Shown here: positions 50,556 to 52,043 of the stretch, piece by piece | Numbering within the stretch: the stretch's first letter is position 1 | Layout: each line of letters opens with the position of its first letter | Assembly (NCBI RefSeq): GCF_022669155.1 | Contig: NZ_JALBVB010000032.1 | Coordinates: 23,357 to 84,481 of the forward strand | DNA from: Kineococcus sp. TRM81007 | Lineage (GTDB): Bacteria > Actinomycetota > Actinomycetes > Actinomycetales > Kineococcaceae | Direction of reading: 5' to 3' | Length of the DNA stretch: 61,125 bases | Translations under genes and position numbers: made by a program | The notes under the pieces: generated by a model | The model's input: the letters and a program-made list of their open reading frames with translations, nothing else | Told to the model about the DNA's origin: nothing | Databases searched by the model: none

Positions 50556-50570
50556 GGCCGGACCTCCGGG

Positions 50571-52043
50571 GTGCTGGGGGTCGTCGGGCCCGACCGCCGC
50601 CTGTCGCAGTTCGTCACCGTCGGCGTGGACGAGGAGACGCGGCTGCGCATCGGGCCGCCGCCGCGCGGGCACGGCGTCCTCGGCGTCCTCATCGAGGACC
50701 CGCGGCCCATCCGCCTGCACGACATCGCCGAGCACGCCAAGTCGTACGGGGTGCCGGCGAACCACCCGCCCATGTCCTCCTTCCTGGGCGTGCCCATCCA
50801 GGTCGGCGAGCAGGTCTTCGGCAACCTCTACCTGACCGAGAAGGCCGGCGGGGGCGACTTCACGCAGGACGACGAGGACGTCGTCGTGGCGCTCGCCGCG
50901 GCCGCCGGCATCGCGATCAAGAACGCCGACCTGTTCGAGCAGACCCGCAGCCGCGAGCGGTGGCTGGAGGCGTCCACCGAGGTCACCGCGGCGCTGCTCG
51001 GCGGGTCCGCCGGGGCGCAGGCCCTGCACCGGGTGGTGGCGCAGGCGTGCGTGGCGGCCGACGCGGACGCCGGCGTGCTGCTGCTCGCCGACGCCTCGCC
51101 GGGGCTGCGGGTGGCCGCGGTCGCCGGGCCCGGCGCCGAGGAGCTGGTGGGCCGGCGCGTGGTCGCCGGCACCGCCCTGGAGGTGCTGTCCGGCGCGGGC
51201 CCGCGCCTGCTGGCGGAGGCGGGGGAGCACCTGCCGGGGCTGGGGGCGGCGGGCGGGCCGACCGCGCTGGCGCCGCTGTCGGTGCCCGGCCGCGACGCCC
51301 TGGGCGTGCTGGCCGTCGCCCGGCACCGCGGTGCGCCGGAGTTCACCGGGGCGGAGGTGGGCATGGTCGGCTCCTTCGCCGGTCACGCCGCGCTCGCGGT
51401 GGAGTTCGAGCGCGCGCAGACCGACCGGCAGCGCCTCGCCGTCTACGAGGACCGCGACCGCATCGCCCGCGACCTGCACGACCTCGTCATCCAGCGGTTG
51501 TTCGCCGTGGGCCTCGGCCTGCAGTCCCTGGGGCCGCGCTTGCGCGGGACCGGTGCGGAGGACCGCCTGGCCGCGTTCGTCGACGACCTGGACGAGACGA
51601 TCCGGGAGGTGCGGCGCACCATCTTCTCCCTGCAGGAACCGGACGAGGGGCCCACGGGCCTGAGGGGCGAACTGCTGCGGGTGGCCTCGGGCGCGACCGA
51701 CCCGCTCGGTTTCGAACCGCACCTGGCGCTGGAGGGGCCGCTGGACTCGGCGGTCCCCGACGACGTGCGCGCGGACCTGCTGGCGGTGCTGGGGGAGGCG
51801 CTGGCGAACGTCGCCCGCCACGCCCGCGCCTCCCGCGTGGACGTGCACGTGTCCGTGGACGCCACCGGGCGCGAGCTGCTGCTGCGCGTGTCCGACGACG
51901 GCGTGGGCCCGGACCCGGACGCCTCGCCGGGCCACGGCACCCGCAACATGTCCGCCCGCGCCGAGCGCCTGGGCGGGAACTGCTCGCTGGGCGTGCGGGC
52001 GCGCGGCGGCGCCGAGCTGCGCTGGCGGGTGCCGCTGGTCTGA
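50571..52043 (+). CDS. DevS/DosT-like GAF-GAF histidine kinase, N-terminally truncated
   Basis: About 490 residues. GAF 1 begins in mid-domain ([24 protein letters not shown], then [18 protein letters not shown]), so roughly the first 60-90 residues of a DevS-type kinase are missing. GAF 2 spans about 140-285. The HisKA_3 box [23 protein letters not shown] keeps the phospho-accepting His, and an HATPase domain ([21 protein letters not shown]) completes the protein. No response-regulator gene adjoins it. The GTG start is a guess; no ribosome site is seen, and it may be a pseudogene. Confidence 0.8.

Follow-up and report, generated by a model that had tools for sequence, protein, structure and literature searches.

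The closest described systems are the nitrate reductase operon narGHJI (Pfam PF02665; structure 1q16, chain C), the heme-GAF sensor kinases of the DevS/DosS-DosT type, and the pseudogenes that deletions leave behind in bacterial genomes. The heme ligands of Escherichia coli NarI are given as His56, His66, His187, and His205 in the excerpted text of PMC5338063, and excerpts of PMC4082495 describe a DosS construct without its heme domain as active under all conditions. The window, by which we mean the whole 61,125-nucleotide stretch of Kineococcus sp. TRM81007 DNA that was analyzed, shares features with all three. Its narI pieces, ribosome binding site, and downstream CMD-family gene match actinobacterial nar operons, but it contains neither narG nor narH and almost nothing of narJ, and its narI is frameshifted and has lost two heme-ligand histidines. 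Its kinase has the domain order of the DevS/DosS-DosT proteins, with two GAF domains followed by HisKA_3 and then HATPase, the first GAF domain aligning with GAF-A of DevS and retaining a likely counterpart of His149; unlike those kinases, it lacks the N-terminal region and the beginning of GAF-1, which is therefore incomplete. Missing genes, a frameshift, a truncation, and joined remnant ends are what bacterial deletion pseudogenes display, and the locus differs from them in nothing essential, although its two scars are near each other and the remnant is nearly without drift. The reading that we favor, with a probability of roughly 0.6, is that narGHJI was lost very recently through two or more deletions, or through a single complex event, with truncation of the kinase as well. 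The locus would then be a new example of a well-known type of event, ordinary gene loss, unless the join was made by the draft assembly. A literature search by subject rather than by organism returned nothing on this locus among the matches listed.

Table 1. Features of the nar remnant and the adjoining kinase. Except for the window itself, coordinates are window positions.
Feature	Position	Strand	Description
Window	bases 23357-84481 of contig C31		whole contig examined
CMD-family gene downstream of narI	49654..49992	-	Pfam PF02627
narI C-terminal piece	50032..50484	-	Pfam PF02665 profile 96-217, E 3e-42; approximately residue 97 onward, with normal end and stop
narI N-terminal piece	50472..50555	-	Pfam PF02665 profile 1-24; 27-28 codons, in a different frame from the C-terminal piece
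Scar 1, inside narI	50472..50481		223-nt (3x74+1) out-of-frame deletion relative to intact narI genes
narI ribosome site and last 4-5 possible narJ codons	50552..50567	-	GGAGGT at 50562-50567; sequence and spacing as in locus L061, close in other relatives
Scar 2, nar remnant joined to kinase	50567..50569		nar homology ends at 50567/50568; kinase homology begins at 50568
DevS/DosS-type histidine kinase lacking N-terminal region and start of GAF-1	50568..52043	+	Pfam GAF, HisKA_3, HATPase

The two Pfam matches to narI are separated by 213 nt in intact genes, whereas in the window they overlap by 10 nt, so the gene has lost 223 nt and no longer stays in one frame. The C-terminal piece is 73 to 80% identical to NarI of 16 of the 25 named relatives (Lentzea, Amycolatopsis, Actinoplanes, and others), and the N-terminal piece matches the starts of relatives' narI genes in tblastn searches. 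When the window's narI was aligned with those of 18 relatives out of the 25 (the seven loci L077 to L083 were left out), 99 columns proved invariant. The gap takes up 33 of these; among the remaining 66, the window matches at 65, so either the loss would be very recent or the gap is an assembly artifact. His53 and His63 in NarI of Lentzea aerocolonigenes (locus L059) align with His56 and His66 of the E. coli protein in 1q16 chain C, and both fall within the gap; the counterparts of its His185 and His203 are kept. The window thus has no single-frame NarI and retains two of the four heme-ligand histidines. Judged from its sequence, the remnant cannot give rise to a NarGHI nitrate reductase, because narG and narH were not found and the two histidines are gone from narI. 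A direct repeat of up to 10 nt can be read in both frames at this scar; the relatives, which are homologs and not the ancestor, do not have it at both sites, so it is at most a putative repeat.

The region immediately upstream of the narI GTG start (50555-50553) reads CCGGAGGTCCGGCC in the window and tcggaggtcgcgcg in locus L061, and several other relatives agree in sequence and spacing. In intact relatives, as in the window, GGAGGT lies six bases ahead of the narI start. The minus strand from 50569 to 50552 encodes PEVRP followed by a TGA stop that overlaps the GTG, and the narJ genes of relatives end in the same frame, for example with SEVAR, AEVSR, or AEVCR before the stop. These residues could hold the last codons of narJ, about five at most, a stub so short that it could not be recognized as narJ on its own. 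The overlap of TGA and GTG is weak evidence on its own, because any GTG followed by A yields it. A preliminary description of the locus had taken ten residues here as the narJ tail. The stop overlapping the narI start was confirmed, but only the last four or five codons can belong to narJ, the preceding TTPST being the antisense of kinase codons.

At the second scar, the ends of the nar remnant and the kinase meet within one or two bases, and any direct repeat is about 0 to 1 nt long as judged from homologs rather than from the ancestor. From the join onward the plus strand encodes the interior of the first GAF domain of a DevS/DosS-type kinase, much as the preliminary description had proposed. 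Pfam GAF_2 matches from profile position 24, chain A of 2vzw from residue 23 of 149 (nothing in the window corresponds to residues 1 to 22 of that construct), and 2y8h from residue 27 of 153. A chance overlap of frames is ruled out by the Pfam and PDB matches, which for both narI and the kinase lie far beyond chance, and by the homolog alignments. Kinases from 13 of 34 distinct places were aligned, and all 13 extend upstream of the point where homology begins in the window. In most of them, a conserved stretch ends in A-x-Y directly before G/A-A-L-G, and it is at that G (50568) that the window's homology begins. The same short kinase was seen in none of the 13, and the missing N terminus was found nowhere else by a kinase search of the organism's own genome. 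Codon 50763-50765 specifies a histidine whose partner in the 2y8h alignment is chain position 92. If a five-residue tag precedes residue 63, this would be His149 of DevS, the proximal heme ligand, according to a numbering pieced together from the structure alignment and excerpts of PMC4082495. The domain is not a complete heme-binding GAF-A, since the proximal histidine is kept but the front of the domain is missing.

The remaining nar genes were sought throughout the genome with protein family models. The narG model (TIGR01580) reached 29.5 bits against a cutoff of 1084 and exceeded that cutoff in none of the 12 family genomes, this one included; the narH model (TIGR01660) reached 59 bits against a cutoff of 524, and the narJ model (TIGR00684) had no match in the genome. 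Each of the three models exceeded its cutoff in 3 of 14 control genomes. NarI is absent from the 11 other family genomes (10 of the same genus and 1 other) and present in 8 of 27 genomes of the same order at 43 to 55% identity. Its absence from the family and its distance within the order, set against the identity of 73 to 80% to the named loci, suggest that the operon was gained horizontally, although loss of NarI from the sister genomes is also possible. The gene order narG, narH, narJ, narI is found in all 25 narI loci of relatives (narG is only partial in L062 and L077, which are cut inside or near that gene), and in two of the 25 (L069 and L075) a CMD gene follows narI as it does in the window.

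In the favored sequence of events, a narGHJI operon, probably of horizontal origin, would have suffered one deletion that took out narG and narH, left almost nothing of narJ, and cut the front off a neighboring DevS/DosS-type kinase gene. Another deletion would have put narI out of frame by removing its missing 223 nt, and the loss as a whole would be very recent. The preliminary description had ascribed everything to one deletion. Its account of what disappeared (narG, narH, all but the very end of narJ, and the kinase front) is borne out, but the second, out-of-frame scar inside narI, which it had missed and which lies 86 to 97 bases from the join, means that a single simple deletion cannot explain the locus. 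If the deletions are real, the locus would record, in a freshly cut remnant, how nitrate respiration came to an end in one lineage, and it would caution annotators against calling this narI functional or this DevS-type sensor complete. If they are not, it points to a place where the draft genome was wrongly joined. A long-standing open question is settled by neither outcome.

An assembly artifact, in which the strain still has the operon and a false gap closure left an island of roughly 86 bases stitched in between the narI and kinase sequences, is unlikely, if far from negligible. The genome is a 4.22-Mb draft in 60 contigs with a completeness score of 100%, and the window's GC content is 69 to 80% per 2-kb step. 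The contig carries five N runs (of 1, 9, 16, 1, and 18 bases), which make it a scaffold, and the 9- and 16-base runs flank the window. At the window's left end, a gene on the minus strand (23-995) has no stop before the bounding 9-base run and is therefore cut by the scaffold gap. N runs also occur in 9 of 12 control stretches of the same genome. False closure would account for a narI almost without drift and for two joins within 100 bases, and there is precedent in Corynebacterium, where the absence of nitrate reductase genes from some strains is ascribed to assembly issues in the excerpted text of PMC5406005. Against it, no N run lies within 10 kb of the join, and the model searches found narG, narH, and narJ on no other contig even though the genome scores as complete.

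The behavior of reading frames elsewhere also bears on a false closure. A codon-frame model gave 36 same-strand frame changes on the contig, and in 35 of these the upstream frame stops within 41 nt. The 36 were listed by hand, and a rule-based count likewise gave 36 with the same single exception. That exception is narI, where the upstream frame runs on for 132 nt. None of 56 frame changes lacked a stop in the control (12 stretches of 20 kb, 240 kb in total), which makes narI the sole such case among the 92 tested. One case in 36 on the contig against none in 56 in the control indicates that the damage is local, which fits real deletions. In a gene-end test, 9 ends on the contig looked odd, as did 19 in the control stretches; 22 of these overran by less than 200 nt. 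Overruns above 200 nt numbered six, one on the contig and five in the controls; three lie beside N runs and three lie away from them. The latter three mean that other breaks in the assembly are possible, a point in favor of the artifact. Two control stretches from this genome contain long overruns away from N runs (L130:15300-16764 and L137:10751-10853, with 1647 and 2024 nt before a stop); these may be further broken genes or errors of the codon model.

It is improbable that an inversion or transposition joined the nar remnant to the kinase and cut both, the two never having been neighbors across one deleted segment. The preliminary description had pictured an ancestral full-length kinase divergent from narG, an arrangement that none of the examined loci shows. 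When the 25 narI loci were searched with the window's kinase, no divergent match lay upstream of narG; in eight of them the genes upstream of narG were also read. The 40 kinase loci searched, which represent 34 distinct places and mostly come with flanks of about 1.5 kb, contain no nar gene. In a genome of the same genus (G006), the full-length kinase follows the gene for cytochrome bd subunit II. All of this would agree with a rearrangement, but gene order around both nar and the kinase is poorly conserved and most kinase flanks are short, so absence elsewhere says little. Moreover, one deletion would be expected to leave just such a pair of divergent genes, each without the end that faced the other. 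The locus from L. aerocolonigenes provides a kinase fragment just upstream of narG and on its strand, which indicates that a kinase and nar can be neighbors. This fragment (L059:2891-3316) is a 142-residue C-terminal piece with an HATPase_c domain, 42% identical to the window's kinase. It is separated from the downstream narG by 287 bases and immediately preceded by an unrelated gene, and it may be a kinase remnant that arose independently next to a nar operon. General frameshift noise is unsupported, given the single exception on the contig and the clean control.

Under the favored reading of recent gene loss, the kinase is most likely a decaying gene that has lost its function. It deviates at 3 of 85 columns that are invariant in the 13 homologs, and homologs held out in turn deviate at 0 to 8, so the kinase appears to have been under normal constraint until recently. 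Continued production of a truncated protein, starting from GTG 50484 in the narI remnant or GTG 50571 at the join and signaling without gas control, is very doubtful. The small number of deviations would agree with it, as would the activity under all conditions that the review PMC4082495 reports for DosS without the heme domain, the front of which is missing here; if it occurred, the event that ended nitrate respiration would also have rewired a hypoxia/NO sensor. However, a scan of ATG and GTG starts between 50484 and 50800 found a ribosome site core ahead of none of them, and a very recently truncated gene would look equally unrelaxed. A search for a plasmid source matched 51 records, none covering at least 80% of the query, and the 20 records listed cover the kinase part only.

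Following the truncated kinase, the window contains a flavohemoprotein-like gene (52261-53532) with Pfam globin, FAD-binding, and NAD-binding domains; no relative of it was found near the 40 kinase loci searched. A genome of the same order carries a second copy of a DevS-like kinase with an internal TGA (G091:C1:2108335-2109456), which is perhaps another decaying sensor.
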